Assembly (NCBI GenBank): GCA_027083715.1
Contig: JALWNR010000400.1
Coordinates: forward strand, 1-15,602
Direction of reading: 5' to 3'
Length of the DNA: 15,602 nucleotides
DNA from: Bacteroidales bacterium
GTDB taxonomy: Bacteria > Bacteroidota > Bacteroidia > Bacteroidales > NBLH01
In this document: positions 1 to 15,580 of the stretch, one piece after another
Layout: every line of letters begins with the position of its first letter
Position numbering within the stretch: position 1 is the first letter of the stretch
Made by a program: the position numbers and the translations under genes
Notes under the pieces: model-generated
The model's database searches: none
The model's input: only the letters and a program-made list of their open reading frames with translations
What the model was told of the DNA's origin: nothing

Positions 1-51
1 GAAAGTTTTTTCATAATAATAGGTTTTAGGTTAGTAATTAGGTTAAAATGC

Positions 52-82: not shown

Positions 83-112
83 ATTGGTTAAATTTAGTCT
101 GCAAATATCATA

Positions 113-222
113 TTATTTTATTCGCTTTTGAACAATATCGGGATTACGCGAAGTGTTAAACACCGATATTACAAAAATATTATTTTCCTGAACGGAATAA
201 ATTATCAAATAAGGAAAAACTC
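113..222 (-). pseudogene. RelE/ParE toxin, C-terminal remnant
   Basis: This minus-strand frame reads about 36 codons, with the stretch FPYLIIYSVQENNIFVISVF followed by NTSRNP and a TAA stop at 113-115. The pattern FPY-IIY-(5 to 6 residues)-IFV-VFHTSRNP is the C-terminal beta-sheet of RelE/ParE-superfamily toxins. A full toxin is about 95-100 residues, so the N-terminal two thirds are missing. The remnant begins directly at the end of the antitoxin-like frame, which points to an internal deletion joining the antitoxin end to the toxin tail. No start codon remains, so it is not expected to be expressed. The assignment rests on motif recognition, not a search. Confidence 0.75.
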
Positions 223-433
223 TTAAAACATATCTTTTACTGTTTCCCAATCAACAGCTTGCACCTTCTCTGTTTTTAGCTCTTGCAGTCTTTTGTCCAA
301 CATTTGTTTTTCTTCATTGGAAAGTTCTATCTCACTTTCTTCTTCAACAATTTGAAAAAAAATCAAACTTTTTCAGTAAATCAATGACAAACTGATATTC
401 TGTATCGGTAATATTAACGGTAATTGTTTTCAT
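223..433 (-). pseudogene. Antitoxin-like gene with a frameshift in an A8/T8 run
   Basis: An ATG at 431-433 opens a frame MKTITVNITDTEYQFVIDLL followed by KKFDFF, which then hits a stop. Removing one base from the eight-A run at 355-362 continues it as QIVEEESEIELSNEEKQMLD and on to DWETVKDMF, ending at the TAA at 223-225. The restored product is about 69 residues, acidic in the middle, with an SNEEKQMLDKRLQEL helix and a W-E-x-V-K end typical of addiction-module antitoxins paired with RelE/ParE toxins. It starts 31 bp after the meaB stop and is followed by the toxin tail. The frameshift could be a true mutation, slippage in the homopolymer or a sequencing error. The truncated toxin next door favours real decay. 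Confidence 0.72.
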
Positions 434-464
434 TCCAACAAATTAAAATCTCTTCGATATAAAT

Positions 465-1541: not shown

Positions 1542-1562
1542 ATAAGAAGAATTAAATTTTAA

Positions 1563-2468: not shown

Positions 2469-3661
2469 TTTTGTGCGATTAATTCTATTTCATTTAAAAT
2501 ATCCTTTGCTACTTCTTGCTTTGTTTTTAACTCAAATTTTTTGATATTATTATCTTTAAACAGAATACTTATTTTATTGGTATCATGCCCAAAACCGGCA
2601 CCTTTGTCCTGCAAAGAATTTAAAACGATAAAATCCAGATTTTTCTTTATCAGTTTGCCCGCTGCATTTTTTTCTTCATCATCGGTTTCCAAAGCAAAAC
2701 CAATCAACATTTGTCCATTTTTCTTGATTTTTCCTAATTCAGCAGCAATGTCTTTGGTAGGTTTCAACTCAATAAACATATCATCTTTGGTGCGTTTTAT
2801 TTTTTTATCGGCAGCGTAGGCTGGTGTATAATCTGCCACGGCTGCATTCATAATGGTAATATCCGTTTCGGGAAAATACTGTAAGCATAGCTCCAACATT
2901 TCGGCTGCCGATTTTACATCAATTACTCTTACTCCTTCCGGTTTTGAGATACTTACGGGTCCACTTACAATGGTTACTTCGGCACCTCTGTTTTTGCATT
3001 CCTCTGCCAATGCATAGCCCATTTTTCCGGATGAATAATTACCAATAAAACGCACAGGATCAATGGATTCGTAAGTTGGTCCGGCAGTAATCAGTACTTT
3101 TTTCCCTTTCAGGCTTTGATTTTTGTAAAAATAATCTTTAACAGTATTAAAAATCTGTAAGGGCTCCGCCATTCTACCCTTCCCGATTAGTCCGCTGGCA
3201 AGTTCGCCGCTATCGGCATCTATGCAAATGTGCCCACGTGCAATTAAATCATTAATATTTTTTTGCGTAGCCGGATGTTGGTACATATCCAAATCCATGG
3301 CAGGAGCAAAAAACACAGGGCACTTTGCCGAAAGATAGCTGGTAAGCAAAAGGTTATCAGCAATACCATAGTTCATTTTTGCCAGTGTATTTGCCGTTGC
3401 CGGTGCAATTACCATAGCATCAGCCCACAAACCTAAATCTACATGACTATTCCAATCTCCGTTTTCAGGATTGAAGAAATCGGTTAAAACCGGATTTTTT
3501 GAAAGTGTTGCCATGGTAAGCGGAGTAATAAATTCTTTGGCAGCTTGGGTCATCAAAACTTTTACTTCGGCTCCTGCTTTGATAAACTCACGTACCAAAT
3601 ATGCGGTTTTGTATGCTGCAATACCGCCGGTAATCCCGATTACTATTTTTTTGCCTTTCAT
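2465..3661 (-). CDS. coaBC: Bifunctional CoaBC (phosphopantothenoylcysteine decarboxylase / phosphopantothenate-cysteine ligase)
   Basis: This 398-residue cytosolic enzyme of coenzyme A synthesis joins 4'-phosphopantothenate to cysteine (CoaB) and decarboxylates the product to 4'-phosphopantetheine (CoaC). The N-terminal flavin-binding CoaC domain (about 1-180) shows GITGGIAAYK (9-18), the catalytic His in NSHVDL (H73), PAMDLDM (120-126) and the substrate-clamp segment GELASGLIGKGRM (152-164). The CoaB domain starts near 187 with KVLITAGPTYESIDPVRFIG (188-207), then NYSSGKMG and NAAVADY. In E. coli the clamp carries a catalytic Cys (A-C-G); here it reads A-S-G, discussed as a finding. It is the first gene of an operon with DUF4835 and probably meaB, with a good promoter upstream. 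Confidence 0.96.
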   Translation of the reverse strand: MKGKKIVIGITGGIAAYKTAYLVREFIKAGAEVKVLMTQAAKEFITPLTMATLSKNPVLTDFFNPENGDWNSHVDLGLWADAMVIAPATANTLAKMNYGIADNLLLTSYLSAKCPVFFAPAMDLDMYQHPATQKNINDLIARGHICIDADSGELASGLIGKGRMAEPLQIFNTVKDYFYKNQSLKGKKVLITAGPTYESIDPVRFIGNYSSGKMGYALAEECKNRGAEVTIVSGPVSISKPEGVRVIDVKSAAEMLELCLQYFPETDITIMNAAVADYTPAYAADKKIKRTKDDMFIELKPTKDIAAELGKIKKNGQMLIGFALETDDEEKNAAGKLIKKNLDFIVLNSLQDKGAGFGHDTNKISILFKDNNIKKFELKTKQEVAKDILNEIELIAQK

Positions 3662-3722
3662 TATTTATTAATATTGTTGTTGCTATTTACAATTTTTGCA
3701 ACATTGTATGCTGCATTACATA

Positions 3723-3753
3723 CAAAAGTACAAGTTTTCTTTATCAGTAGCAA
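3723..3753 (-). promoter_or_regulatory. Bacteroidota-type primary sigma promoter for coaBC
   Basis: On the minus strand the -7 box TACTTTTG (3723-3730) matches TAnnTTTG exactly. A -33 TTG (3751-3753) lies exactly 20 nt upstream. This is the phylum's primary-sigma promoter layout. It predicts a transcript start near 3715 and a leader of roughly 50-55 nt before the coaBC ATG at 3661. The upstream repeat-protein gene ends in a terminator just before it, consistent with a new transcription unit. Confidence 0.65.
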
Positions 3754-3761
3754 TAGTGTTA

Positions 3762-3792
3762 AAATAAAAATGCAGTACTGTCCGTACTGCAT
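3762..3792 (-). terminator. Rho-independent terminator after the 35-residue repeat gene
   Basis: A perfect 9-bp stem (ATGCAGTAC at 3770-3778, GTACTGCAT at 3784-3792) has a 5-nt loop. Read on the minus strand it is followed immediately by TTTTATTTTA-type sequence (3760-3769). It lies 24 bp past the stop of the repeat-protein gene and separates it from the coaBC promoter. Confidence 0.8.
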
Positions 3793-3815
3793 TATATCGT
3801 AAACAGGAAATATTT

Positions 3816-4430
3816 TTACATAATATTTCCGTTAATATCAAAACTTACCGTAGAACCGGCTTTCACACTTATCGGCGAGCCTCCTTTATAATAAGTATGG
3901 TTAGCACTTAATATTCCTGATTTAAATATACCATTTGCATAAAAAAAGACTGGTTTACCTTTCATACAAGTAACCGGTGCATTTTTAGCGGTGTAATAGG
4001 TATGAGTGGCAGCTAATGTTCCGCTCAAAAACCTACCGGCATCATCAAAATACACAGCAGTACCTTTTAAGCAGGTAACCGGTGCATTTTTAGCAGTATA
4101 ATAAGTATGATTAGCGGCTAATGTTCCGCTTAGAAACCTGCCGGCATTATCAAATTTCACCACAGTACCCTTTAAACAGGTAACCGGTGCATTTTTAGCA
4201 GTATAATAAGTATGATTTGCTGCCAATGTTCCGCTCAGAAACCTGCCGGATTCATCAAAATATACAGTAGTACCTTTCAAGCAAGTAACCGGTGCATTCT
4301 TAGCCGTGTAATAAGTGTGGTTTGCTGCCAATGTTCCGCTTAGTAATTTCCCAGAACCATTCAAATGAACACTTGTTCCTTTCAAACAAGTAACCGGTGC
4401 ATTTTTGGTAGTATAATAAGTATGGTTTGA
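3816..4430 (-). repeat. 105-bp in-frame tandem DNA repeat, six units
   Basis: The DNA encoding the repeat protein is itself a direct tandem array with a period of 105 bp. Units start (minus strand) near 4427, 4322, 4217, 4112, 4007 and 3902. The segment AAAAATGCACCGGTTACCTG and its near variants recur in units one to five. The middle units are most alike and the outer ones diverge, the pattern expected from unequal crossing-over. Copy number could differ between strains. Confidence 0.88.
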
Positions 4431-4499
4431 ACTTAAAACCTGTGCATTTAAGCCTGTATAAAAGGCCGCAAATAATACAAAAATAAATATTCTTTTCAT
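3816..4499 (-). CDS. Secreted protein of six tandem 35-residue repeats, function unknown
   Basis: A 227-residue protein with a clear signal peptide (MKRIFIFVLFAAFYTGLNA, cleavage before Q20). The whole mature chain is six repeats of exactly 35 residues, in register at N25, N60, N95, N130, T165 and N200. The consensus is NHTYYTAKNAPVTCLKGT, then V-x-F-D-x-x-G-R-F-L-SGTLAA. Each repeat probably forms short beta-hairpins, as in MORN-like or adhesin-like beta-solenoids, but I cannot name the family. Repeats one to five each hold a single Cys (38, 73, 108, 143, 178). The sixth is divergent, lacks the Cys and acts as a cap ending in DINGNIM. There is no visible C-terminal sorting domain or transmembrane segment. 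It has its own terminator and 89 bp separate it from rlmI, so it is likely monocistronic or the tail of the rlmI unit. Confidence 0.85.
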   Translation of the reverse strand: MKRIFIFVLFAAFYTGLNAQVLSSNHTYYTTKNAPVTCLKGTSVHLNGSGKLLSGTLAANHTYYTAKNAPVTCLKGTTVYFDESGRFLSGTLAANHTYYTAKNAPVTCLKGTVVKFDNAGRFLSGTLAANHTYYTAKNAPVTCLKGTAVYFDDAGRFLSGTLAATHTYYTAKNAPVTCMKGKPVFFYANGIFKSGILSANHTYYKGGSPISVKAGSTVSFDINGNIM

Positions 4500-4588
4500 A
4501 ACTTCATTATTTTAAGGTTAAACATTGCATTAACAACGAATAATAAAAACTGAATATTATTTTCAAATTGCAGTTCTTAAACATAAAT

Positions 4589-5767
4589 TTATTCCACATA
4601 CAAAACCAAACCTTTTAAATACTCATTTTCAGGATGATAAATATTTACCGGATGATCGGGTGGTTGTGTAGTTTGATGCAATATACGAATATTTCGTTTG
4701 GCATCGGCAGCCGCCCCAAAAACGATTTTACGAAACAAGTCGCGTGTTATTTTTTGCGAGCAGGAAAAAGTAAACACAATCCCTCCGGGATTGATATTGC
4801 GAAAAGCGATTAAATTTAGCTCCTTGTATCCGCGTGTGGCGTTGGGCACTGCCTTAGCAGTTTTGGCAAATGCAGGCGGATCAAGCACAATTAAATCGTA
4901 TTTATTTTCGGTATTTTTCAAAAACTTAAACACATCTTCGGCATAAGATTGATGCTTTTCCGGTGCAATATTGTTTAGTTTCAAATTTTCTTCAATCAGC
5001 TCAACGGCTATTTTAGAGGAATCAACCGAATGCACCAATTCTGCACCTGCATACAAAGCATACAAGCTAAAACCTCCGCTGTAACTAAATGTGTTACAGA
5101 CTTTTGCTCCTTTTGAGTACTGCTTAATTAGCATACGCGCATCGCGTTGATCGAGGAAAAAGCCCGTTTTTTGCCCGCTTTCAATATCAACCCAAAACTT
5201 CACACCGTTTTCAATAATCTCAATTTTTGTATCACCGGTTTTACCGGAAACCCATCCTTTTTTACGTTCCACATTCTCCAAACGTCCGGCTACTTCTTTG
5301 GCTTTTAAATAAACTTTTTCAAAGCCTATTGCTTTTAGCGCATCAATAATAAAATCCAGGATTTTATCCGTTCCTCTTATCAATAATTGCACCACAACCG
5401 TATTCTTATACACATCAGCAATCAAGCCCGGGAAAAAATCACCTTCCGCATTAATCAGGCGGTAAGCATTGGTTTGCTCTGAAATAACATATCGCTTGCG
5501 AATATCATAAGCTTTGCGAACTTTTTCCGTCCAATATTCTTGCGAAAGCACATCGGTTTCCGTATCGGTATATTCAAACACGCGGCAGACAATTTGTGTC
5601 CCCGGCGCATAAAAGCCATACCCTATTAAGCGATTGTCATAGCTGTAAACAGAGAGTATTTCGCCCAATTCAGCATCAGGCATTATTTGCACCGCACCGG
5701 AAAATATCCAGGGGTGGCGATTAATAAGCGCTCGCTCACGCCCTTTCTTTATAATAATTCTTTGCAT
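4589..5767 (-). CDS. rlmI: Class I SAM-dependent rRNA methyltransferase, RlmI-like
   Basis: The protein is 392 residues from the ATG at 5767. An in-frame TTG at 5782 would add five residues, but it sits inside a promoter-like TTACTTTG (5780-5787), and the ATG gives the usual family N-terminus (MQRIIIKKGRERALINRHPW). Domains are an N-terminal PUA RNA-binding fold (about 1-75), a central EEHEE-type linker domain, and a Rossmann methyltransferase with QKTGFFLDQRDAR (199-211), FSYSGGFSLYA (228-238), acidic VDSS (248-251), LDPPAF (295-300) and FSCSQ (334-338), where Cys336 is the likely catalytic nucleophile. E. coli RlmI makes m5C1962 in 23S rRNA; the same activity is inferred here. A weak upstream TTTG (5810-5813) is 22 nt from the -7-like box, slightly too far. 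Confidence 0.9.
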   Translation of the reverse strand: MQRIIIKKGRERALINRHPWIFSGAVQIMPDAELGEILSVYSYDNRLIGYGFYAPGTQIVCRVFEYTDTETDVLSQEYWTEKVRKAYDIRKRYVISEQTNAYRLINAEGDFFPGLIADVYKNTVVVQLLIRGTDKILDFIIDALKAIGFEKVYLKAKEVAGRLENVERKKGWVSGKTGDTKIEIIENGVKFWVDIESGQKTGFFLDQRDARMLIKQYSKGAKVCNTFSYSGGFSLYALYAGAELVHSVDSSKIAVELIEENLKLNNIAPEKHQSYAEDVFKFLKNTENKYDLIVLDPPAFAKTAKAVPNATRGYKELNLIAFRNINPGGIVFTFSCSQKITRDLFRKIVFGAAADAKRNIRILHQTTQPPDHPVNIYHPENEYLKGLVLYVE

Positions 5768-5842
5768 CTGTTTTTTATGCAAAGTAAAGAAATTATGCTA
5801 AACCGTTTCCAAATCTGGTTAATAATTTTACAGTTCAAACAA

Positions 5843-5990
5843 CTACCTGGATTCTTTTATCAAAAACAGATAATAACTTACCGTTTCATCTCCTTGTGCA
5901 ACAGCTCTTTCCAAGCAGTATTTTGCATTTTCTAATTTTTTTCAACACCATCACCATTAAAATACATAATACCTAACCCGCAATAATTAC
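5843..5990 (-). pseudogene. Sel1-repeat protein, frameshifted terminal fragment
   Basis: One minus-strand frame reads LGIMYFNGDGVEKN and then TAG (5932-5934). The adjacent frame continues LENAKYCLERAVAQGDETVS and YYLFLIKESR, ending at TAG (5843-5845). Joined by adding one T at about 5935, they give a nearly complete Sel1 repeat (LGxMYxxGxGVxKNxxxAxxxLxxAxxxGD) followed by a gene end. Upstream the frame runs into the hairpin at 5991-6021 and stops, so the rest of the gene is missing. Sel1 proteins are tandem helical-repeat scaffolds. No start codon is available and it is not expected to be translated. This explains about 150 bases of the otherwise empty gap between carB and rlmI. Confidence 0.72.
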
Positions 5991-6021
5991 CTTCGATGAA
6001 GTGCTTCGTACTTCATCGAAG
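5991..6021. repeat. Strong perfect hairpin between carB and rlmI
   Basis: CTTCGATGAAGT (5991-6002) and ACTTCATCGAAG (6010-6021) form a perfect 12-bp stem with a 7-nt loop (GCTTCGT). It is extended by AATTA/TAATT after one mismatch. It lies about 100 bp past the carB stop, so it could end or protect that transcript, but no U-tract follows on either strand. Its sequence is unrelated to the REP copies further right. It also marks the point where the Sel1 reading frame is lost, so it may be an inserted palindrome. Confidence 0.75.
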
Positions 6022-6118
6022 ATAATTATTACAATTGACTATAAACAAAAAAGAAAAAGCTTAAAGGCAATTAAGACAACAACCTTTAATCACAGCTAAA
6101 ACATTGCAAAAATGTATT

Positions 6119-9100
6119 TTAAGAATATTTATTCCAACTCTTAATACTCAACGTTTCTTTTGAATGTTTGCAAATTGAATAGATAAAAGCACTTGCCAAA
6201 CGCGCATTGGTTATCAACGGAATGTTGTAGTCAATGGCACTTCGGCGAATGGTGTAATCATTTGCCAACTCTCCGGCGGACAAATTTTTGGGAATATTGA
6301 TGACCAAATCAATCAAACCGTTTTTCAGATAATCCAACACATTGGGCTTTTTATCTTCATCTGGCCAATGGAGCATGGTACTTTCAATGCCATTGCCTTT
6401 CAAAAACTCATGCGTTCCTTTGGTGGCAAACAAATTGTAATCTCTTTCTACCAACATACGACTACTCTTCAGCAATTCCAGTTTGGAACGTATCGGACCT
6501 GATGAAATCAGAATATTTTTTTCGGGAATGGTGTAACCTACTGAAAGCATAGCTTTCAGAATTGCCTCGTAATAGTCATCGCCTATGCAACCCACTTCAC
6601 CGGTTGATGACATATCCACACCCAAAACAGGGTCGGCTTTTTGTAAACGAGAAAATGAAAACTGCGAAGCTTTTACTCCAATATGGTCTAAATCGAAAAT
6701 GGATTTTGAAGGTACTTCATATTCTTCTCCCAGCATTATTTGTGTAGCCAACTCAATTAAATTGCTCTTCAATACTTTGGAAACAAAAGGAAAACTCCGT
6801 GATGCACGCAGATTACATTCAATCACTTTCACCTCGTTATCTTTTGCCAAAAATTGCATATTAAATGGTCCCGTAATGTTCAGTCCTTTTGCCAATTCAC
6901 GCGCAATACGTTTAATACGGCGCACGGTTTCAAAATAGATTTTTTGCGGCGGGAATACCAAAGTGGCATCTCCCGAGTGTACTCCGGCAAATTCAATATG
7001 CTCCGAAATGGCAGAAGTAACCAATTCGCCGTGGTCGGCAACCGCATCTATTTCAATCTCTTTTGCCTGCTCGATAAATTCAGTTACTACCACAGGATAT
7101 TGTTTCGACACATTGGCTGCCAAAGAAAGAAAATGCTCTAATTCTTCCTTATTGGAAACCACATTCATTGCAGCACCTGAAAGCACATAGGAAGGACGTA
7201 TCAATACCGGAAAGCCAACCTCATCTACAAAGCGGTAAATATCCTCTATGGTAGTTAGCTCCTTCCATTTTGGTTGGTCAATTTTCAATTCATCTAAAAG
7301 CATTGAAAATTTATGGCGATTTTCAGCACGGTCAATATCCTCAGGTGAAGTTCCCAAAACAGGCACTTCCTGATTACGCAAACGCATTGCCAGATTGTTC
7401 GGTATCTGTCCGCCTACAGAAACCACCAAACCTTTTGATTGCTCCAAATCCTGAATATCGAGTACACGTTCCAGCGTGAGTTCATCAAAGTACAATCGGT
7501 CACACACATCGTAATCGGTACTCACCGTTTCGGGATTGTAATTAATCATTACCGAGCGGTAATCGTTTTTATTGATGGTATTCAGCGCATTAACACTACA
7601 CCAGTCAAACTCTACACTACTACCGATACGGTACGCACCCGAACCAAGCACAATTACAGATTTTCCATCATTCTCATAATCAATATCGTGTACATTTCCA
7701 CTGTAAGTAAGATACAGATAATTGGTCTGCGCCGGATATTCAGCAGCCAAAGTATCAATTTGCTTCACATAAGGCACAATATTTCTTGATTTACGATATT
7801 CGCGTACTTTCAGCAAGGCACTGTCCATAGCTTGCACTTCACTTTTTTCTACGAAACGCGCCAATTGAAAATCGGAAAAACCGCGTTTTTTGGCTTCGAG
7901 CAATAAATCATCGGACAAATCTTCTACTTTATCATATTTTTCAAGCTCTTGCTTAATTCTGAGAATATTTTTCAGTTTTTCCAAGAACCATTTATCAATT
8001 TTGGTCAAATCATGAATTTTATCAATGCTCATGCCTTTGGCAAATGCCGAAGCAATCACAAAAATACGCATGTCAGTGGGGTTTTGAAGCTCTGCTTCAA
8101 TATCTTCAAAAACCAAATCGCGATTTCCGACAAATCCGTGCATCCCTTGCCCGATCATGCGCAAGCCTTTTTGTATGGCTTCTTCAAAATTTTTACCGAT
8201 AGCCATTACCTCACCCACGCTTTTCATACTACTGCCGATGAGTTTCGACACGCCTGAAAATTTATTCAAATCCCAACGTGGAATTTTGCAGACTACATAG
8301 TCCAAAGCCGGCTCAAAAAATGCCGATGTGGTTTTGGTAATCGAGTTTTTCAGTTCGTGCAAACCGTAACCCAAACCCAATTTAGCCGCCACAAATGCCA
8401 ATGGATAACCCGTTGCCTTTGAAGCCAAAGCACTGGAACGCGAAAGTCGGGCGTTTACCTCAATCACACGGTAATCCTCCGAGTTAGGGTCAAATGCATA
8501 TTGCACATTACACTCGCCAATTACGCCAATGTGGCGAATAATCTTAATTGCCAGCTCGCGCAATTTATGATACTCACGGTTTGTCAGCGTTTGCGAAGGA
8601 GCAATGACAATACTTTCACCTGTATGAATACCCAGTGGGTCAAAATTTTCCATATTACACACGGTAATACAGTTGTCGTACTTATCACGCACAACCTCAT
8701 ATTCCAACTCTTTCCAACCTTTCAGCGACTCTTCAATCAACACTTGATTGGAATAAGAGAAAGCATTGTTGGTCAGCTTAATCAATTCTTCTTTATTGTT
8801 GGCAAAACCACTACCCAGTCCGCCAAGCGCATAAGCGGCACGTACAATTATCGGATAACCTAGCTTTTCGGCTGCTTCCACGGCTTCATCCACACTTTCC
8901 ACCGCATAGCTGCGGGCTGTTTTTACGTTAATTTCATTCAGTTTATTAACGAAAATGTCACGGTCTTCCGTATCGATAATTGATTGCACAGGTGTACCCA
9001 GCACTTCGATACCATATTTTTCAAAAACTCCGTTTTTGTAGAGTTCCACACCGCAGTTAAGTGCAGTTTGTCCACCAAAAGCGAGCAAAATTCCTTCGGG

Positions 9101-9337
9101 ACGTTCTTTTTTGATAACCTGCTCTACAAAATAAGGGGTTACAGGCAAAAAGTAAATTTCATCGGCAACGCCTTCCGATGTTTGCACTGTGGCAATATTC
9201 GGATTAATCAGGACGGTTTTTACACCTTCTTCCTTTAATGCTTTTAATGCCTGTGAACCGGAATAATCAAACTCGCCTGCCTCTCCGATTTTCAATGCTC
9301 CCGAACCAAGAATGAGTAACTTGTTAAATTTTTTCAT
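6119..9337 (-). CDS. carB: Carbamoyl-phosphate synthase large subunit
   Basis: This is the 1072-residue synthetase subunit, which makes carbamoyl phosphate from bicarbonate, ATP and ammonia supplied by the glutaminase subunit CarA. The two homologous ATP-grasp halves start at LLILGSGALKIGEAGEFDYS and near residue 560 at VIVLGSGAYRIGSSVEFDWC. A C-terminal MGS-like allosteric domain (about 930-1072) contains FATKGTHEFLKGNGI. I chose the ATG at 9337 over one at 9391: the extra 18 residues are unlike the family, come from a REP copy and an AT-rich 8-bp repeat, and 1072 residues is the normal length. The N-terminal half resembles the arginine-specific CPSases of fungi and human CPS1 more than E. 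coli CarB (see findings). carA is not in the window. It is the last gene of the arginine cluster. Confidence 0.96.
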   Translation of the reverse strand: MKKFNKLLILGSGALKIGEAGEFDYSGSQALKALKEEGVKTVLINPNIATVQTSEGVADEIYFLPVTPYFVEQVIKKERPEGILLAFGGQTALNCGVELYKNGVFEKYGIEVLGTPVQSIIDTEDRDIFVNKLNEINVKTARSYAVESVDEAVEAAEKLGYPIIVRAAYALGGLGSGFANNKEELIKLTNNAFSYSNQVLIEESLKGWKELEYEVVRDKYDNCITVCNMENFDPLGIHTGESIVIAPSQTLTNREYHKLRELAIKIIRHIGVIGECNVQYAFDPNSEDYRVIEVNARLSRSSALASKATGYPLAFVAAKLGLGYGLHELKNSITKTTSAFFEPALDYVVCKIPRWDLNKFSGVSKLIGSSMKSVGEVMAIGKNFEEAIQKGLRMIGQGMHGFVGNRDLVFEDIEAELQNPTDMRIFVIASAFAKGMSIDKIHDLTKIDKWFLEKLKNILRIKQELEKYDKVEDLSDDLLLEAKKRGFSDFQLARFVEKSEVQAMDSALLKVREYRKSRNIVPYVKQIDTLAAEYPAQTNYLYLTYSGNVHDIDYENDGKSVIVLGSGAYRIGSSVEFDWCSVNALNTINKNDYRSVMINYNPETVSTDYDVCDRLYFDELTLERVLDIQDLEQSKGLVVSVGGQIPNNLAMRLRNQEVPVLGTSPEDIDRAENRHKFSMLLDELKIDQPKWKELTTIEDIYRFVDEVGFPVLIRPSYVLSGAAMNVVSNKEELEHFLSLAANVSKQYPVVVTEFIEQAKEIEIDAVADHGELVTSAISEHIEFAGVHSGDATLVFPPQKIYFETVRRIKRIARELAKGLNITGPFNMQFLAKDNEVKVIECNLRASRSFPFVSKVLKSNLIELATQIMLGEEYEVPSKSIFDLDHIGVKASQFSFSRLQKADPVLGVDMSSTGEVGCIGDDYYEAILKAMLSVGYTIPEKNILISSGPIRSKLELLKSSRMLVERDYNLFATKGTHEFLKGNGIESTMLHWPDEDKKPNVLDYLKNGLIDLVINIPKNLSAGELANDYTIRRSAIDYNIPLITNARLASAFIYSICKHSKETLSIKSWNKYS

Positions 9338-9339
9338 TA

Positions 9340-9362
9340 ATTGTTGTATTGTTAAATTCCTA
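9340..9362 (-). repeat. AT-rich 8-bp phased repeat before carB
   Basis: ATTG or ATTC recurs at 9340, 9348 and 9356, exactly 8 bp apart, in the stretch immediately before the carB ATG. On the coding strand it reads as CAAT/GAAT units separated by AT. The same layout precedes argH, argE and argG. It replaces a Shine-Dalgarno sequence, which is absent. Confidence 0.6.
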
Positions 9363-9579
9363 TTTTTGACACATTCCAAATTGCGATGCATGATTGTTTT
9401 ATTCTTTTTGAAACAACATTACTTGCACCGCTTTTGTTTTCCGTTTTTTATTCCCCGCATTTCGCTGCGCTACATACGGGGCTATCGATATTTAATCCCT
9501 ACGGGATTATTTATGACGCAGTCATAAACTTTTATATGAACTTATAACTTGTCAGTCCACAAGCTGATGCCTCATATGG
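9363..9579. repeat. REP-like modular palindromic element, copy A (complete)
   Basis: The element occupies nearly the whole argH-carB gap. In plus-strand order: a TTTTTGACAC flank; arm GCGATGCA (9383-9390) with imperfect partner TGCACCGC (9424-9431); stem CCCCGCAT/ATACGGGG (9453-9460, 9474-9481) around TTCGCTGCGCTAC; perfect hairpin AATCCC-TAC-GGGATT (9494-9508); perfect hairpin TTTATGAC-GCA-GTCATAAA (9510-9528); and a weak TCAG/CTGA hairpin (9552-9567). The CCCCG module and AATCCC hairpin resemble Bacteroidota REP sequences mobilised by RAYT (TnpA-REP) transposases. No such gene is present here, so the family link is an inference. Confidence 0.8.
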
Positions 9580-10911
9580 TTATTCCAACAATTTTTTAAC
9601 CGCCTCATCAACCTTATCAAAATTAAATTCCTTAATAATTTCTTCCATTTTTTGGGTGATTTTATCATTTGCCAAATTACCGATACTGCCTTCGTGTGTG
9701 TGATTGACTGTTTTTTCAGGATTGAAATTGCCTGCCGCTATATCCAAGCCTACTTTTTTATAGGCATCTCTAAACGGCATTCCGTTGATTACGTGTTTAT
9801 TCACTTCTTCCACACTAAACAGGTATTCGTATTTTTTATCATCGATAATATTTTCGTTTACACGGATATTATCCAGCATAAAATCCGTTATTTTCAATAC
9901 ATCTTTCATTTCATCAAATACGGGAATAAAGTCTTCCTTAATTATTTGTAAATCGCGGAAATATCCCGTTGGCAGATTATTGGCAATCAGTACAATCTCG
10001 TTCGGCAAAGCCTGTATTTTGTTGCATTTGGCACGCAAAAGCTCAAACACATCGGGATTTTTCTTATGGGGCATAATGCTTGAACCCGTAGTCAGTTCGT
10101 CAGGCAAACTGACAAAACCGAAATTCTGGCTCATAAACAGATTAAAATCCATACTGAATTTGGCAATGGTAGCCGCCAGCGAAGCCAAAGCATAAGCTAC
10201 CACGCGCTCTGTTTTTCCGCGTCCCATTTGGGCATACACCACATTGTAATTCATCCGCTCAAAACCCAAAAGTTCGGTAGTCATTTGCCTATCCAAAGGA
10301 AAGGATGAACCATAGCCCGCTGCCGAACCCAATGGATTTTGATTGGCAATTTTATAAGCCGCCAAAAGCATTTGTATATCGTCGGTCATACTTTCGGCAT
10401 AAGCACCAAACCACAAGCCAAATGATGAAGGCATAGCCACTTGCAAATGCGTGTAGCCGGGCATTAAAATATTTTTGTATTTTTCGCTTTGCGCGATAAA
10501 ATTGCGGAAAAGTTTATCCGTCAAATCCACCAGCTCTTTAATTTGCGCACGGATAAACAATTTCAAATCAAGTAATACTTGGTCGTTACGCGAGCGACCG
10601 TTGTGGATTTTTTTGCCCGTATCGCCCAGTTTTTGCGTTAAAAGAAATTCTATTTGCGAATGAATGTCTTCAATGCCTTCTTCAATTTGCAATTTGCCTT
10701 CTTTATTTAGTTGGTAAATGTTTCGCAATTCGCGTAAAACATCATCTAATTCCTGTTTGGTAAGCAAGCCGATACTCTCCAACATAGTGCAATGTGCCAT
10801 TGAACCGAGTATATCATTCTCTGCCAGATACATATCCAGCTCGCGATCTTTACCTATGGTAAAAAGTTCTATCTTTTTGTTTACTTCCGTTCCTTTATTC
10901 CAGAGTTTCAT
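9580..10911 (-). CDS. argH: Argininosuccinate lyase
   Basis: This is a 443-residue homotetrameric cytosolic lyase that splits argininosuccinate into arginine and fumarate, the last step of arginine synthesis. Fumarase/aspartase superfamily signatures are all present: HNGRSRNDQ (103-111), GYTHLQ (152-157, with the catalytic His) and the mobile signature loop GSSIMPHKKNP (276-286) with the catalytic Ser. The length is near that of the family. Family members often have about 20 more residues at the C-terminus, so this is a slightly short form. It is flanked by REP copy A downstream and copy B upstream. The ATG at 10911 lies directly after AT-rich phased repeats and is the only plausible start. 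Confidence 0.96.
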   Translation of the reverse strand: MKLWNKGTEVNKKIELFTIGKDRELDMYLAENDILGSMAHCTMLESIGLLTKQELDDVLRELRNIYQLNKEGKLQIEEGIEDIHSQIEFLLTQKLGDTGKKIHNGRSRNDQVLLDLKLFIRAQIKELVDLTDKLFRNFIAQSEKYKNILMPGYTHLQVAMPSSFGLWFGAYAESMTDDIQMLLAAYKIANQNPLGSAAGYGSSFPLDRQMTTELLGFERMNYNVVYAQMGRGKTERVVAYALASLAATIAKFSMDFNLFMSQNFGFVSLPDELTTGSSIMPHKKNPDVFELLRAKCNKIQALPNEIVLIANNLPTGYFRDLQIIKEDFIPVFDEMKDVLKITDFMLDNIRVNENIIDDKKYEYLFSVEEVNKHVINGMPFRDAYKKVGLDIAAGNFNPEKTVNHTHEGSIGNLANDKITQKMEEIIKEFNFDKVDEAVKKLLE

Positions 10912-10918
10912 TGTTAAA

Positions 10919-10942
10919 ATTGTTATATAGCTAAATTGTTAT
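10919..10942 (-). repeat. AT-rich 8-bp phased repeat before argH
   Basis: ATTGTTAT (10919-10926), ATAGCTAA (10927-10934) and ATTGTTAT (10935-10942) are three octamers in phase between the argH ATG and REP copy B. The first and third are identical, and the middle one is degenerate. Compare the arrays before carB, argE and argG. Confidence 0.6.
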
Positions 10943-11117
10943 TTTGATACATTATTAATTGCGATGCATGTTTGTTTTACTCTTTTTGAAACCACATTAC
11001 TTGCATCGCTTTGGTTTTTCTCTTTTTATTCCCTGCATTTCGCTGCGCTACATACAAACTATCAATATTTAATCCCTTCGGGATTATTTATGACGCAATC
11101 ATAAAACTTATATGCTC
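10941..11117. repeat. REP-like modular palindromic element, copy B (terminal hairpin missing)
   Basis: This copy has the same orientation as copy A and fills the alkD-argH gap. The long-range arms GCGATGCA (10961-10968) and TGCATCGC (11002-11009) pair perfectly. The CCCCG stem has decayed (CCCTGCAT against ATACAAAC). The hairpin AATCCC-TTC-GGGATT (11071-11085) is intact with a different loop. The TTTATGA/TCATAAA stem keeps 7 bp. The final TCAG/CTGA module is deleted, so the copy ends at the alkD stop. Confidence 0.78.
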
Positions 11118-11798
11118 TTATATGGTTATATTCCTCAAAGCTTCGCGTTTACTTAAATTACTTAATTTTGTTTTTTCCGTAAAATCAATTACCCATTGCG
11201 GGTTTGTTTTTGCATACTCTCTTAATATCCAACCTATTGCTTTATTAATAAAAAACTCATTGGTATCTTTCAGTTTCAATATAATTTCCCTTAAAAGCTC
11301 TGTATCTAAATCATTTTTGTATTTCAATTGAAATAAAATAGCCGTTCTTTGTAGCCAAATATTACCTGATGAAATCCATTTACTCACATATTCTTCAATT
11401 TTTTCGGGAGATTTTTCTAACAATACTCCTACAAGTTTAACCGCAATTACATCAACAGTATCCCACCACGATTTATGAGTAATCATATATTCAAACAACT
11501 TAATATCTTGCGGTTCAAATTGTTTTAGATATTTTTGAGCCAGTTCCTGTGCAAAATACTGATATTCTCTTTCTGCTTTGTTCCAAAAATGTTTTACTAT
11601 TTTGTGTAATTCCACTTTATCCGGTAAAGCTTCTTTATGTAAAAAAGCCTTCTGAATATTGCGTCTCTCAGGTGTTTTGATGCCTAAAAAAGCAAATTGA
11701 TTACGCATATACGCCGCCATTTCTTTGGAAAGTTGCGGATTAGCAGCTTTTTCAAATTCTGCTTCTAATGATTGACTATAAGCATTCATATTTGTCAT
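11118..11798 (-). CDS. AlkD-type DNA alkylation repair glycosylase (HEAT-like repeats)
   Basis: A 226-residue all-helical protein of the DNA alkylation repair (AlkD/AlkC) superfamily, which excises 3- and 7-alkylpurines without flipping the base. The diagnostic segment HKSWWDTVDVIA (108-119) carries the paired Trp and catalytic-type Asp (D113), and WLQRTAILFQL (148-158) carries the DNA-contacting Arg (R151), corresponding to W109/D113/R148 of Bacillus AlkD. The length is typical. It is inserted between the argE-like gene and argH, is unrelated to arginine synthesis, and is bounded by REP copies B and C. A second ATG at 11789 is possible. No 8-bp phased repeat precedes it, unlike its arginine neighbours, which hints at a separate arrival. 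Confidence 0.88.
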   Translation of the reverse strand: MTNMNAYSQSLEAEFEKAANPQLSKEMAAYMRNQFAFLGIKTPERRNIQKAFLHKEALPDKVELHKIVKHFWNKAEREYQYFAQELAQKYLKQFEPQDIKLFEYMITHKSWWDTVDVIAVKLVGVLLEKSPEKIEEYVSKWISSGNIWLQRTAILFQLKYKNDLDTELLREIILKLKDTNEFFINKAIGWILREYAKTNPQWVIDFTEKTKLSNLSKREALRNITI

Positions 11799-11815
11799 TT
11801 AATCATCATTCTTAA

Positions 11816-11905
11816 TTGCGATGCATGTTTGTTTTATTCTTCTTGAAACCTTATTACTTACATCGCTTTTATTATTCGTTTTCTAATCCCTACGGGTTAA
11901 TTTAA
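11816..11905. repeat. REP-like modular palindromic element, copy C (short, internal module missing)
   Basis: This copy lies between the argE-like gene and alkD. GCGATGCA (11818-11825) has an imperfect partner TACATCGC (11859-11866). The sequence then jumps from TATTCGTTTTC directly to AATCCCTACGGGTT (11885-11898), so the whole CCCCG/CGGGG module is gone, as are the later hairpins. At about 90 bp it is the shortest copy, and its orientation matches the others. Confidence 0.72.
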
Positions 11906-11914
11906 CAATGAGTT

Positions 11915-12958
11915 TTACCCTAACAGTTTAATATACAAATCAATTCCTTCCTTAATTTCATCAATATATACAAATTCATCAGCCGTGTGTGAACGCTTTG
12001 AACGTCCGGGTCCGATTTTCATTGAAGGAAAGTTCATCAATGCCTGATCGGATAAAGTTGGCGAGCCGTAAGTTTTTATACCTAAGCGCTTTGCCTTTTG
12101 CACAATTTCATGCTCTGGACTAATGGACGATGAATTTAAACGAAACGAACGGGCTTTCACTTCCGACTGCAACATATTGTCTATTATCTCAAATACCTCT
12201 TTGTTTGAGTAATACTCATTAGTGCGCACATCTACCACAAAAGTGCATGTTTCCGGCACAACATTATGCTGTGCCCCACCGTTAATCTGCGTTACCGTAG
12301 TTTTTACCGCTCCCAGAAAATCTGATTTTTTCTCAAACCGGTAATTTTCCAGCTTTTGAATATCGCGCAAAGCAATGCTTATGGCATTAATGCCTTCATC
12401 ACGCGCGGCATGTCCGGCTTTGCCTTTGGCAGTACAATCCAGCACCATTAAACCTTTTTCAGCTATGGCAGCATCCATTCCGGTAGGCTCACCTACAATG
12501 GCAAAGTCAATTTTTCCAAGTTCGGGCAATACCGAGGCTATGCCGTTCTGACCTGACACCTCTTCTTCGGCACTTGCCAGAAAAATATAATTATAGCTTG
12601 TATTTTTTTGCTTACTTAAATGAATAAAACTCATCAACAAGGAAACCAAAGGCGCTCCGGCATCGTTACTTCCTAAACCGTATAATTTGCCGTTTTCTTC
12701 TGTGGGTTGATACGGCTCACGCGTCCATGTAGCAACAGGCTTTACCGTATCGTGATGTGAATTTAACAAAACCGTAGGTTTTGTTTTATCGGTAAAATGT
12801 GTTACCCAAACATTATTATGCTTACGGTTTACCTCAAAGCCGTTACTTCTCAAATATTCCTCCAAAATATCAGCGGTTTTGTCCTCCGAACGACTGACGG
12901 AAGGCGTAGCAATAAGACGTTTTAATAGAGATATGGCTTGTTCGTGAAGAGTTTGCAT
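11915..12958 (-). CDS. argE: M20 family metallo-deacylase, ArgE-like (N-acyl-ornithine or N-acyl-citrulline deacylase)
   Basis: A 347-residue di-zinc amidohydrolase of peptidase family M20. Predicted zinc ligands are H68 in NSHHDTV, the bridging D99 in GSNDAG, E132 of the AEEE motif (E131 the general base), E157 in GEPTG and H324 in RSHTADEF. The dimerisation (lid) domain covers about 170-280 with GKAGHAA (179-185). In arginine synthesis this enzyme removes the acyl group from an N-acyl intermediate. Some Bacteroidota acylate with succinyl or act on citrulline rather than ornithine, and the sequence alone does not let me choose the substrate. DapE-like activity is a less likely alternative given argG and argH on either side. 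The ATG at 12958 follows phased CAAT repeats. Confidence 0.88.
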   Translation of the reverse strand: MQTLHEQAISLLKRLIATPSVSRSEDKTADILEEYLRSNGFEVNRKHNNVWVTHFTDKTKPTVLLNSHHDTVKPVATWTREPYQPTEENGKLYGLGSNDAGAPLVSLLMSFIHLSKQKNTSYNYIFLASAEEEVSGQNGIASVLPELGKIDFAIVGEPTGMDAAIAEKGLMVLDCTAKGKAGHAARDEGINAISIALRDIQKLENYRFEKKSDFLGAVKTTVTQINGGAQHNVVPETCTFVVDVRTNEYYSNKEVFEIIDNMLQSEVKARSFRLNSSSISPEHEIVQKAKRLGIKTYGSPTLSDQALMNFPSMKIGPGRSKRSHTADEFVYIDEIKEGIDLYIKLLG

Positions 12959-12987
12959 TGTTATATTGTTACATTGTCAGATTGTTG
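12959..12987 (-). repeat. AT-rich 8-bp phased repeat before argE
   Basis: TTATATTG (12961-12968), TTACATTG (12969-12976) and TCAGATTG (12977-12984) are three contiguous octamers in exact phase with the ATTG that overlaps the start codon. On the coding strand this reads as CAATnTAA units running into the ATG. It is the clearest of the four arrays. Confidence 0.7.
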
Positions 12988-13203
12988 TTTTTGATACATT
13001 TTTAATTGCGATGCATGTCTGTTTTATTTTTTTTTGGAACCTTATTACTTGCATCGCTTTTATTTTTTGTTTTTTATTCCCCGCATTTCGCTGCGCTACA
13101 TACGGGGCTATCAATATTTAATCCCTACGGGATTATTTATGACGCAGTCATTAACTCTTATATGAACTTATAACTTGTCAGCCCACCGGCTGATGTCTTA
13201 TAG
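12988..13203. repeat. REP-like modular palindromic element, copy D (most complete)
   Basis: This copy fills the argG-argE gap. It has a TTTTTGATAC flank; perfect arms GCGATGCA (13008-13015) and TGCATCGC (13050-13057); stem CCCCGCAT/ATACGGGG (13079-13086, 13100-13107); hairpin AATCCC-TAC-GGGATT (13120-13134); a TTTATGAC-type hairpin broken by one base (13136-13154); and a perfect 6-bp hairpin TCAGCC-CACC-GGCTGA (13178-13193). It is the best reference for the family. It has the same orientation as the other four copies. Confidence 0.82.
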
Positions 13204-13217
13204 GATTCTATATTTGT

Positions 13218-14402
13218 TTAATCCAACGAACGATGCATAAACATTGAGTTTGCCAGAATTTTGGTAAATCCTTTTACGTCATCGCCTGTCCATAAAGTAT
13301 TTTCCTCGCCATAGCTACCGAATTTGGCATTGGCTAAATCATAATCTGATTTTATTCCCTCTATTTCAAAACAGTATGGATAAAGCGTAATAAATACCTC
13401 GCCTGTTACACGCTGCTGACTATCTTCCAAAAATTTTTCAATATTGCGCATTACCGGTTCAAAATATTGTGCTTCGTGCAGCAACATTCCGTACCAGTTT
13501 GCCAACTGCTCTTTCCAATACATCTGCCATTTGCTCAATACATGTTTTTCCAACATACGATGTGCCTCAATAATCAATACCGCTGCCGGAGCCTCAAAAC
13601 CTACCCTGCCTTTCGATCCAATTACCGTATCGCCTACGTGCATTCCTCTGCCTATGGCATATTTTCCGCCTATCTCATTCAGTTCTTGAATGGCATCAAC
13701 AGTGTTTTCATAATTATTACCATTAATCGATACTAACTCACCATTTTTAAAAGATAAATTCAGTTTATAAGGTTCATTTTCTTGCAACTGATTTAAATAA
13801 GCATGCTCCGGTAAAGTTTTATCCGACGATAATGTTTCTTTTCCGCCAATGCTGGTTCCCCAAATGCCTTGATTAATGGAATATTCCGATTTTTTCCAAT
13901 CGTCTTTCACACCGTTTTCTTTGAGGTATTGAATTTCGTATTCGCGTGATAATTTTTCATCTCGCACGGGGGTAATAATTTCGGCTTCGGGAATAATCAG
14001 TCGAAAGGTTAAATCAAAACGAACTTGATCGTTTCCTGCTCCCGTGCTTCCGTGTGCAATGTATTTGGCACCGATTGATTTTGCATATTTGGCAATTTCT
14101 ATTGCCTGAAAAGTTCGCTCTGAACTTACCGATAACGGATAAGCATTATTTTTCAAGATGTTGCCATACACCATATAGCGAATGCAATCTTTATAATAAG
14201 TATCGGTAATATCAATATTTTTGTGGCTTGCCGCACCCAACCGTAATGCTTTGTCAGACACCGCTTCCAGCTCCTCTTTTGAGAAACCGCCGGTGTTTAC
14301 CAAAACGGTGTGTACTTCGTATTTTCCTTCCTCACTAAACTTTTTAACGATGTATGAGGTGTCTAATCCTCCGCTGTATGCTAAAACTATTTTTTTTTTC
14401 AT
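13218..14402 (-). CDS. argG: Argininosuccinate synthase
   Basis: A 394-residue ATP-pyrophosphatase that condenses citrulline and aspartate to argininosuccinate in the cytosol. The N-terminal nucleotide-binding PP-loop YSGGLDTS (9-16) is intact, as is the substrate-binding segment HGSTGAGNDQVRFD (117-130). GRGMHVGDTVIGSKGRVGFE in the synthetase domain and the C-terminal dimerisation helices complete the fold. Its length is normal. In many Bacteroidota it is the second gene of the arginine cluster after the GNAT, as here, but the usual argC/argD follow-up is missing. It is separated from the GNAT gene by a broken four-helix-bundle gene and from argE by REP copy D. The ATG at 14402 sits after 8-bp phased repeats. 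Confidence 0.96.
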   Translation of the reverse strand: MKKKIVLAYSGGLDTSYIVKKFSEEGKYEVHTVLVNTGGFSKEELEAVSDKALRLGAASHKNIDITDTYYKDCIRYMVYGNILKNNAYPLSVSSERTFQAIEIAKYAKSIGAKYIAHGSTGAGNDQVRFDLTFRLIIPEAEIITPVRDEKLSREYEIQYLKENGVKDDWKKSEYSINQGIWGTSIGGKETLSSDKTLPEHAYLNQLQENEPYKLNLSFKNGELVSINGNNYENTVDAIQELNEIGGKYAIGRGMHVGDTVIGSKGRVGFEAPAAVLIIEAHRMLEKHVLSKWQMYWKEQLANWYGMLLHEAQYFEPVMRNIEKFLEDSQQRVTGEVFITLYPYCFEIEGIKSDYDLANAKFGSYGEENTLWTGDDVKGFTKILANSMFMHRSLD

Positions 14403-14408
14403 TATTTC

Positions 14409-14440
14409 AATTGTTGAATGGTTAAATTGCTAAATGGTTA
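14409..14440 (-). repeat. AT-rich 8-bp phased repeat before argG
   Basis: Four contiguous octamers in phase: AATTGTTG (14409-14416), AATGGTTA (14417-14424), AATTGCTA (14425-14432) and AATGGTTA (14433-14440). They alternate AATTG and AATGG cores. The last octamer contains the stop of the four-helix-bundle remnant and one arm of the inverted repeat around it. Confidence 0.7.
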
Positions 14441-14828
14441 ATATTGCAATTTTGAATTTGTATATTTAATAAAAGAGTTTATCTCTATTGGCAACTTTTC
14501 AAGTTCTCCAAAGATATGCGTATATTGTTCTTTCGTTAATAATTTTCGGACTTTTGTTTTTTCGTTCCAATCAAAACTTTCTTTTAATGAACCAAAACTA
14601 ATTCGGTAAAATCTTTTTTATCCCTCTTGCCATATCTACCAAAGCCTTCGGCTATATTTGCTGAAATACTGTCAACTACATCAACAAACTGTTCGCCTAA
14701 TGTGTTTCTTGCAAAATAATCCCATTGAATTACAATATCTCAGACATAATTAGATAAATGAAATGCTATTTTATAGGCTTTGACATCATCTAATTTCAGA
14801 TATTTCTTCTCTATACCTTAACCATTTA
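14431..14828. repeat. 11-bp inverted repeat bracketing the four-helix-bundle remnant
   Basis: TAAATGGTTAA (14431-14441) and its exact reverse complement TTAACCATTTA (14818-14828) enclose the pseudogene almost base for base. The left arm belongs to the octamer array before argG. The right arm is also an octamer pair (TTAACCAT, TTTAACCAT) that includes the stop codon of the GNAT gene. The arrangement suggests insertion into, or duplication of, an octamer tract. Confidence 0.6.
14438..14814 (-). pseudogene. Four-helix bundle protein (23S rRNA intervening-sequence type), broken
   Basis: The minus-strand frame from 14814 reads IEKKYLKLDDVKAYKIAFHL and SNYV, then TGA (14740-14742) where relatives have Trp. 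It continues DIVIQWDYFARNTLGEQFVD, VVDSISANIAEGFGRYGKRD and KKDF. A one-T deletion at about 14608-14610 then shifts frame to YRISFGSLKESFDWNEKTKV and on to IEINSFIKYTN, stopping at 14438. SISANIAEGFGR is the hallmark of the four-helix-bundle proteins encoded in 23S rRNA intervening sequences and in many free-standing Bacteroidota loci. The restored length (about 125 residues) is normal. There is no in-frame ATG at the 5' end. Three lesions make it a pseudogene. The function of intact members is not established. Confidence 0.85.
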
Positions 14829-15398
14829 ACCATGTATTTTCGGATCAAACAACATTCCCGTGCAAAGACATTTATCGCGTTTAGTTCGGACAAGAATATC
14901 GTAATAGTTACAGGTTTCGCAGCCGTGCCAAAACTCATCATCTTGCGTGATTTCTGAAAATGTTACCGGAACATAACCCAATGCCGTATTGATTTTCATT
15001 ACCGCTAAACTGGTTGTTAAGCCAAAAATTTTTGAATTGGGATATCGCTTACGTGAAAGCTGAAAAGCACGCTTTTTTATTTCGCTTGCCAAACCGGATT
15101 TGCGGTATTTCTGTGCTACTATCAGTCCTGAATTAGCTACATACTTTTTGTTTTCCCAGGTTTCGATATAGCAAAAACCTGCTATATCTTTATCTCCTTT
15201 TTGCAAAGCAATTACTGCTTTTCCTTGACGGATTTTTTCCGAAATGTATTCCACCGTTCTAATAGCAATACCGGTTCCGGGAATTTTTGCAGCGTCTCCT
15301 ATCATTTGCACAATCTGTTTTGCCAAAGGCAAATGTTCCTCAGCTGCATCAATAATTTGAAATTCTTGTGTTGTCAAAACATTGTTTTTTATTTCCAT
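14826..15398 (-). CDS. GNAT N-acetyltransferase of the Bacteroidota arginine cluster
   Basis: The protein is 190 residues from the ATG at 15398. An ATG at 15416 would add six residues (MRKKRI); I prefer 15398 because AGAGG lies just upstream and it restores the 48-nt spacing to REP copy E. The GNAT fold is clear: AVIALQKG (61-68), GFCYIETW (74-81), the acetyl-CoA loop RKSGLA (100-105) and GLTTSLAVMKINTALGY (126-142). The C-terminal tail carries C160-x2-C163-x13-C177-x-C179, which looks like a zinc-binding knuckle. Relatives stand at the head of arginine clusters in this phylum. By position they are the candidate N-acylglutamate synthase (ArgA role), but no classical ArgA/ArgJ similarity is visible, so the substrate is inferred. 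Confidence 0.85.
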   Translation of the reverse strand: MEIKNNVLTTQEFQIIDAAEEHLPLAKQIVQMIGDAAKIPGTGIAIRTVEYISEKIRQGKAVIALQKGDKDIAGFCYIETWENKKYVANSGLIVAQKYRKSGLASEIKKRAFQLSRKRYPNSKIFGLTTSLAVMKINTALGYVPVTFSEITQDDEFWHGCETCNYYDILVRTKRDKCLCTGMLFDPKIHG

Positions 15399-15440
15399 AA
15401 TCCTCTTTTTACGCATTTTTCCGGATTAATCAAGCTGTTT

Positions 15441-15580
15441 TTATTGCGATGCATGTTTTTCTTACTCTTTTTGAAACGATATTACTTGCATCGCCTTACT
15501 TTTCATTTTTATTCCCCGCATTCCGCTTCGCTTCATACGGGCTTATCAATATTTAGTTCCTACGGGACTTTTTCTCAATT
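15441..15580. repeat. REP-like modular palindromic element, copy E (diverged, may continue past window)
   Basis: This copy lies upstream of the GNAT gene, in the same orientation as copies A-D. Arms GCGATGCA (15446-15453) and TGCATCGC (15487-15494) pair perfectly. CCCCGCAT (15514-15521) faces ATACGGG (15535-15541). The small hairpin is AGTTCC-TAC-GGGACT (15555-15569): both arms differ from the AATCCC/GGGATT of other copies, yet pairing is kept. After 15570 the sequence no longer follows the family; the TTTATGAC hairpin is missing. Confidence 0.75.

Follow-up and report, generated by a model that had tools for sequence, protein, structure and literature searches.

Five short hairpin-bearing elements, designated copies A to E, occupy successive gene junctions of an arginine cluster in a Bacteroidales bacterium (assembly GCA_027083715.1). 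The stretch of DNA analyzed, hereafter the window, comprises 15,602 nucleotides (nt) and is the whole contig JALWNR010000400.1 (C400) of the 3.94 Mb assembly, which consists of 884 contigs and is 92% complete. With a probability of about 0.7, the copies are non-autonomous composite elements similar to repetitive extragenic palindromic (REP) sequences, with a core akin to the hairpin unit found at the ends of subclass 1.2 Y1/HUH transposases. They resemble relatives, devoid of a gene, of a transposase that acts on single-stranded DNA and has hairpins of this kind at its own ends. All genes of the arginine cluster are encoded on the minus strand. Since contig C194 overlaps the end of C400, from within hairpin M1 of copy E to the carA stop codon, the gene order could be extended to carA and reads argR-carA-(E)-GNAT-argG-(D)-argE-(C)-alkD-(B)-argH-(A)-carB. 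Five of the six junctions between carA and carB are thus occupied, all in gene orientation; the argR-carA and GNAT-argG junctions carry no copy of this type.

The copies were scored with two models. Model R1 was built from 17 copies of the host genome, including A, B, D and E and excluding C. Model R2 is a covariance model built from 18 flanks of Y1 transposase genes at 11 loci in eight other genomes and contains no window sequence. In the following list, M1 to M5 are hairpin modules (M2 equals H2, M3 equals H1), and E-values are given for both models.

9378..9567, minus strand: copy A, between argH and carB; M1 9383-9431, M2/H2 9453-9481, M3/H1 9494-9508, M4 9513-9525, M5 9551-9567; R1 1.5e-30 (match 9378-9510), R2 7.8e-7.
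10956..11102, minus strand: copy B, between alkD and argH; M1 10961-11009 (exact M1 pattern), decayed M2 11031-11058, M3/H1 11071-11085, M4 11090-11102; R1 1.8e-27 (match 10956-11087), R2 0.0015.
11813..11924, minus strand: copy C, between argE and alkD; M1 11818-11866, degenerate M3-like hairpin 11885-11898, without M2; R1 4.3e-15, R2 0.14 (near background).
13003..13193, minus strand: copy D, between argG and argE; M1 13008-13057 (exact M1 pattern), M2/H2 13079-13107, M3/H1 13120-13134, M4 13139-13151, M5 13177-13193; R1 1.4e-29 (match 13003-13136), R2 1.5e-7.
15441..15571, minus strand: copy E, between carA and GNAT; M1 15446-15494 (exact M1 pattern), M2/H2 15514-15541, M3/H1 15555-15569; R1 1.2e-26, R2 0.067 (near background); partly repeated on C194 1-96.

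A preliminary description of the window had claimed five REP-like copies in one orientation at the arginine junctions, and these were indeed the five best places with either model. The next-best R1 places, 1951-2055 (E 0.027) and 15176-15269 (E 0.039), lie within open reading frames (ORFs); R2 ranked the copies in the order D, A, B, E, C, followed by an unrelated place (E 0.31). The claim of up to five modules holds for A and D, while B has four (no M5, M2 decayed), E three and C two (M1 and the degenerate M3). No copy was clear in positions 1-9362, as had been stated; the ORF list leaves few wide gaps there (3662-3815, 4500-4588 and 5783-6118), and the absence is therefore weak evidence. A search of the window against Rfam returned nothing on A to E at E ≤ 1. 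A strict hairpin-grammar scanner missed all five copies because of the long H2 loop and returned one unrelated place in the window.

Read on the gene strand, a full copy consists of M5, M4, M3 (H1, AATCCCGTAGGGATT), AAATATTGATAG, M2 (H2, CCCCG...CGGGG), about 20 nt and M1. H1 is a hairpin with a 3-nt loop, and the spacer ends in ATAG (ATAAG in E); H2 is missing in C. M1 reads GCGATGCAAGTAAT-N-TCAAAAAGAACAAA-N-CATGCATCGC, and 19-49 nt separate it from the next start codon, i.e., 44-49 nt in A, B, D and E (29 nt in E if GNAT starts at 15416) and 19 nt in C. Across the 17 host copies, the pairing of H1 and H2 is kept through double changes. The M1 stem hardly varies, and M1 therefore looks sequence-specific. 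The copies had been placed just upstream of genes. Copy A does lie upstream of carB rather than inside it, given that carB probably starts at 9338, and every copy lies equally downstream of the preceding gene.

Copies A to E belong to a family dispersed over the host genome. With 150 of 3085 candidates scored, R1 gave a lower bound of at least 28 matches at E < 1e-5; one is a second view of copy E, which leaves at least 27 distinct places. By reading, both M1 arms are present at 20 of these 27; M1 is wholly or partly lost on C460 and C301, and other sequence stands in its stead on C600, C157, C424, C173 and at the second C181 place. The exact M1 pattern occurred 14 times in the host genome, always at R1 places, and a mirrored control pattern did not occur. 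By eye, the host copies at loci L010, L011, L013, L014 and L024 (the last without M1) are enclosed in a repeat of about 240 nt, whose imperfect terminal inverted repeats start with TGCGAATTAAGGGTT.

The five window copies are clustered and closely related. In none of 200,000 simulations did five of 27 uniformly placed copies fall within 6.3 kb. Among the 20 host copies compared (seven of the 27 places, lacking one or both M1 arms, were excluded), the nearest three relatives of each window copy were other window copies, with identities of 0.71-0.90, and the mean identity within A to E stood out against random sets of five (p 0.005). Local duplication or mobilization, as suggested earlier, thus agrees with the relatedness of the copies. 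Many of the 22 places outside the window lie beside other genes, at widely varying distances from the next gene; some fall between genes that look like leuA and leuC, serC and serA, and efflux-pump genes. The orientation bias at these 22 places is modest: on the H1 side, 14 neighboring genes are sense and 4 antisense (p 0.03; one doubtful 70-aa ORF dropped, three places without a gene), and on the M1 side, 11 are sense and 5 antisense (p 0.21; one doubtful ORF dropped, five places without a gene).

The core of the copies recurs beside Y1 transposase genes, which were found in 46 of 60 related genomes (host included). Of 61 Y1 frames that could be read, 47 carried Y...Q..HH (the gene L131/L147 being counted twice); the motif occurs with DH.H, the combination of subclass 1.2. 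In the relatives, the recurrent flank reads H1, a spacer ending in [TC]A[AG], H2, about 22 nt, H3 and the gene, and is often mirrored on the other side. The spacer ends in the 18 training flanks are TAG (9), TAA (4), CAA (3) and CAG (2). In these picked flanks, 98.5% of the cells pair, and 16 of 18 pairs show double changes; of 500 shuffles, none reached the observed covariation on four of five measures and 4 did on the fifth. In A to E, M1 occupies the position of H3, and the units flanking Y1 genes are without the GCGATGCA M1. Y1 genes of the congeners G002 and G006 carry H1-H2 almost as in A to E (AATCCCGAAGGGATT..ATAACCCTGCATGAAATGCGGGG and AATCCCAAAGGGATT..AATAGCCCCGAATGAAATTCGGGG). At L133 of the congener G004, a Y1 gene that contains a stop is preceded, at a distance of about 220 nt, by a unit (1149-1269) of H1, H2 and a long hairpin that resembles M1 in type but differs in its stem. 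As a bare octamer, GCGATGCA was present in 9 of 69 Y1 loci, and the two occurrences inspected within 150 nt of a gene (L133, L152) are not M1 units.

The placement of matches around these genes is directional. Over the 69 Y1 loci (68 genes, L131 and L147 being the same gene), R1 gave 57 matches at E ≤ 1, 33 of them within 130 nt of the gene and 24 farther away. The near matches faced the gene or pointed away at ratios of 25:8 (E ≤ 1), 16:5 (E ≤ 0.1) and 10:4 (E ≤ 0.01); 13 of the 24 farther matches (E ≤ 1) faced it. The hairpin-grammar scanner returned nine facing, one averted and six farther hairpins at the same loci and none in shuffles. Inverted copies around a Y1 gene were found with R1 at L145, L180 and L181 and by eye at L184, L183, L163 and L160. 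Among Y1 loci outside training, 19 of 47 had an R2 match of E ≤ 0.01 somewhere in the locus (47 of 58 such loci were searched). R2 matches at E ≤ 0.001 occurred in 38 of 60 genomes (host included), i.e., in 35 of 46 with a Y1 gene versus 3 of 14 without (p 0.0004). By eye, at least seven gene-less doublets of facing R2 units with gaps of 6-54 nt were counted (G002 C255; G005 C251, C41 and C541; G016 C92; G053 C680; G056 C185), besides a further doublet of two inverted units at L191 17259-17448; at least four neighbor pairs had the opposite order (G005 C87 twice, G006 C186, G033 C102). The facing gene-less doublets are a REPIN-like arrangement.

In the host genome, PF01797 identified one full-length Y1 protein (C505, L114 688-1140) and one remnant (C430, L026 about 1300-1720). 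The remnant looks internally deleted and has inverted units on both sides; both were recovered by R2 among at least 30 host places at E ≤ 1 (150 of 2184 candidates scored). The C505 flanks have a GCACCAAAGGTGC version instead of the GCGATGCA module, with a full unit on one side only. The C505 protein scored 28.5 bits with the NCBIfam model REP_Tyr_transpos (NF047646; cut-off 80) and 60.7 bits with the IS200/IS605 model NF033573 (cut-off 55), which the G016 protein also exceeded (63 bits). By these scores, the host enzyme is IS200-like and not a canonical REP-associated tyrosine transposase (RAYT). The mobilizer previously proposed, a RAYT gene flanked by the same hairpins, is therefore borne out in part: Y1 genes of relatives and the C430 remnant are flanked by hairpins of this architecture, while the full-length host gene differs in enzyme type, in its flanking module and in having Asp for Tyr.

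Like REP/REPIN elements mobilized by TnpAREP/RAYT, the family consists of short palindromic intergenic hairpins in dispersed copies that carry a short motif at the foot of the stem, and inverted copies around a Y1 gene as well as gene-less inverted doublets occur in relatives. Unlike those elements, the unit has three hairpins. The REP copy number is usually over 100 according to PMC2817692, and at least 27 copies were counted here. Instead of the REP foot GTAG/GTGG, A, B and D have GATAG before H2 and E has GATAAG; some other host copies have GTAG (C281, C159). With TnpA-Y1 subclass 1.2, as described in PMC6006769, the enzymes share DH[IV]H, WQ and Y...Q..HH motifs, a length of about 150 aa and occurrence in Bacteroidetes. 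Table 1 of that source gives 'no' REP structures for subclass 1.2, which is described as generally without typical terminal IS200 structures, whereas inverted three-hairpin units flank many genes here. Subclass 2.6 (RAYT group 5) is likewise from Bacteroidetes and, according to the same source, has atypical flanking secondary structures with genome copies; it differs by YIH[QN]NP and NH[LIV]H in place of Y...Q..HH and DH.H. IS200/IS605 elements share the enzyme family and hairpins near the ends, but gene-less dispersed units outnumber genes here. In a literature search, with most subscription papers and preprints outside its reach, no paper on REP-like partners of subclass 1.2 was among those listed.

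The congeners bear on the history of the copies. A search with argH located the operon in G004 and G005, where the gene order is the same except that alkD is missing in G005. In the arg regions of five relatives, two of them with this order, no R1 match had an E-value below 0.25. In G005, carA and GNAT are one base apart where the host genome carries copy E. Since A to E are absent from the two congeners and have their nearest relatives in the window, local spread is indicated, by transposition or recombination. By eye, the GNAT-argG, argG-argE, argE-argH and argH-carB junctions of G005 hold other hairpin repeats (AACATCGCAGATGTT, TTTGCCGAAGGCAAA; L190 = G005 C387, e.g., 3453-3680, 4957-5111 and 265-431), unrelated to A to E. 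The repeat from argG-argE had at least 43 matches in G005, itself included (40 of 114 candidates scored), and none in G000 or G004; its three best matches, itself included, all lie in the same operon in one orientation. In G004, a different REP-type Y1 gene (L191 9530-10123; NF047646 60 bits, cut-off 80) lies at argH-carB with CCCTACGAGGG-type and CCCTACGAGGGTTTTGAACCCTCGTAGGG-like hairpins. The junctions of one operon were thus filled in parallel by unrelated hairpin families.

M1 itself recurs more widely. In G030 (L098-L109), a genome of the same taxonomic order, R1 matched 55 times at E ≤ 0.001, with 56 candidates scored; in its printed copies, M1 appears as GCGATGCACGCAAT...GTTGCATCGC, and neighbors are frequently co-oriented. 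Paired G030 copies were considered as transposase flanks and rejected: the intervening ORFs are not transposase-like, and the PF01797 matches of G030 lie elsewhere. In a contig scan, the exact M1 pattern occurred in only two named contigs of metagenome-assembled genomes (MAGs), JAKQKB010000047.1 and WBUV01000091.1, in whose ORF lists no Y1 gene was noticed. The M1 stem letters recur in the printed G030 copies and in these two MAGs.

The following course of events would account for the arrangement. The H1-spacer-H2 core corresponds in kind to the unit at the ends of subclass 1.2 Y1/HUH single-strand transposases, with the long M1 hairpin where the transposase unit has H3 and then the gene. A subclass 1.2 enzyme would recognize the folded single-stranded unit and move or copy it into nearby single-stranded DNA, possibly helped by local recombination, so that junction after junction of the arginine operon receives copies on the same strand. 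We infer that such an enzyme moved A to E, that single-strand copying explains their common orientation and that the copies are now mostly inactive. As no working host enzyme was found and the copies have diverged, the family may be stranded here. More generally, and tentatively, at slightly less than even odds, subclass 1.2 Y1 transposases of Bacteroidota may be a further REP-mobilizing class. Their substrate would be the three-hairpin unit H1-spacer-H2-H3, and gene-less derivatives would spread locally on one strand, filling successive operon junctions, while congeners filled those of the same arginine operon in parallel with unrelated hairpin families. If so, a group of single-strand transposases listed without a hairpin partner in the 2018 classification (PMC6006769) would gain one. 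The window would also be a natural case for studying how such copies arise, through local jumps in the wake of the replication fork or through recombination, and whether an operon tolerates hairpins between its genes or makes use of them.

Several observations weigh against the proposed kinship with subclass 1.2 units. The R2 training flanks were hand-picked by eye for their pattern, partly after weak R1 hits; the training of R2 thus owes nothing to the window, but the choice of its flanks is not fully independent of it. For the training locus L181, which yielded no open frame, the subclass is presumed. Copies E and C are near background under R2, and only D and A reach E ≤ 1 in the whole-genome search. 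The association of R2 matches with Y1 genes could stem from large or repeat-rich genomes. Many Y1 flanks are incomplete, several having one or two hairpins or none, and no GCGATGCA-type M1 unit was seen beside a full-length Y1 gene. C505 has Asp at the position of the catalytic Tyr, which is kept in all eight other proteins of the alignment; with C430 a remnant, no working host mobilizer was found in the assembly, which is 92% complete. A base-precise empty site could not be defined. Copies A, B and D resemble each other as far as the start codon, which recombination would explain as readily as transposition.

Local recombination is accordingly a serious rival for the spread itself, although we consider it distinctly less probable than even. 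Here, gene conversion or template switching during replication would have copied the elements between junctions, and a transposase would at most have delivered the first copy. The nearest relatives are neighbors, no intact host Y1 gene was found, and the same local pattern exists in G005 with an unrelated repeat. Moreover, A, B and D have similar flanks between M1 and the start codon (for each pair, none of 500 shuffles reached the observed similarity), and whole junctions may therefore have been copied. The long composite from M5 to M1 points the same way, as it was found only in A and D and largely in B (host genome, 40 of 85 candidates scored). However, the 3' flank of E is unlike that of A, B and D, the flank of C is only 19 nt long, and gene conversion requires prior homology at the target, where the congeners have no R1-type copy. 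As previously noted, recombination between the copies could possibly also delete genes.

The two other explanations fare worse. Ordinary miniature inverted-repeat transposable elements with terminal inverted repeats, moved by another transposase and with incidental hairpins, are improbable. Several host copies (C855, C442, C181) are, by eye, embedded in a repeat of about 240 nt that is bounded by imperfect terminal inverted repeats (TGCGAATTAAGGGTT / AACCCTTAATTCACA), but such termini were not seen at A to E by eye, no dedicated search having been made, and the hairpin core is the very part shared with Y1 gene flanks. Still less probable, and very doubtful indeed, is a cluster-specific regulatory leader, i.e., an attenuator or riboswitch-like RNA before each arginine gene. 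It would suit the sense orientation at five of six junctions, the narrow range of distances (44-49 nt) at which M1 precedes the start codon in four copies (A, B, D and E), and the nearly invariant M1 sequence. The genome-wide distribution largely refutes it: with 22 further places, many by other genes and at highly variable distances from the next gene, these five are not the only copies, as the leader would have required. Two congeners have the same operon without copies, and no Rfam family matched at E ≤ 1; the elements are thus neither restricted to arginine clusters nor conserved in them. A dispersed REP-like family, as initially proposed, agrees with these data.

The genes around the copies are listed below. 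Pfam searches confirmed argG, argH, argR, the M20 gene and the alkD-like gene; carA and carB were named from the sequence itself and from mutual matches.

6119..9338, minus strand: carB, with 78-93% identical matches in four relatives; name from the preliminary description.
9580..10911, minus strand: argH (lyase family), PF00206 6.7e-54.
11118..11798, minus strand: alkD-like DNA alkylation repair enzyme, PF08713 2e-63.
11915..12958, minus strand: argE-like M20 deacylase, PF01546 1.1e-22; ArgE/DapE models below cut-off.
13218..14402, minus strand: argG (argininosuccinate synthase), PF00764 and PF20979.
14826..15416, minus strand: GNAT-like gene, PF00583 weak and just below cut-off; position conserved in two congeners.

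The GNAT-argG junction (14403-14825) is without a hairpin element and resembles decayed coding sequence, and G004 has a similar tail there. AT-rich TTGTTAAATTGCTAAATTG-like runs stand close before several start codons (10919-10946, 12957-12992 and 14418-14445) and occur in congener junctions, too. Between the carB end and the next gene, a near-perfect 21-nt inverted repeat (5982-6030) is possibly a terminator. Positions 3816-4499 encode a protein of tandem repeats of about 35 aa (105-nt spacing in the DNA) with a weak match, below cut-off, to a glucan-binding repeat. At 5-85, a sub-threshold Rfam match to the Bacteroidetes small RNA FopS was observed (36 bits versus a gathering threshold of 56).

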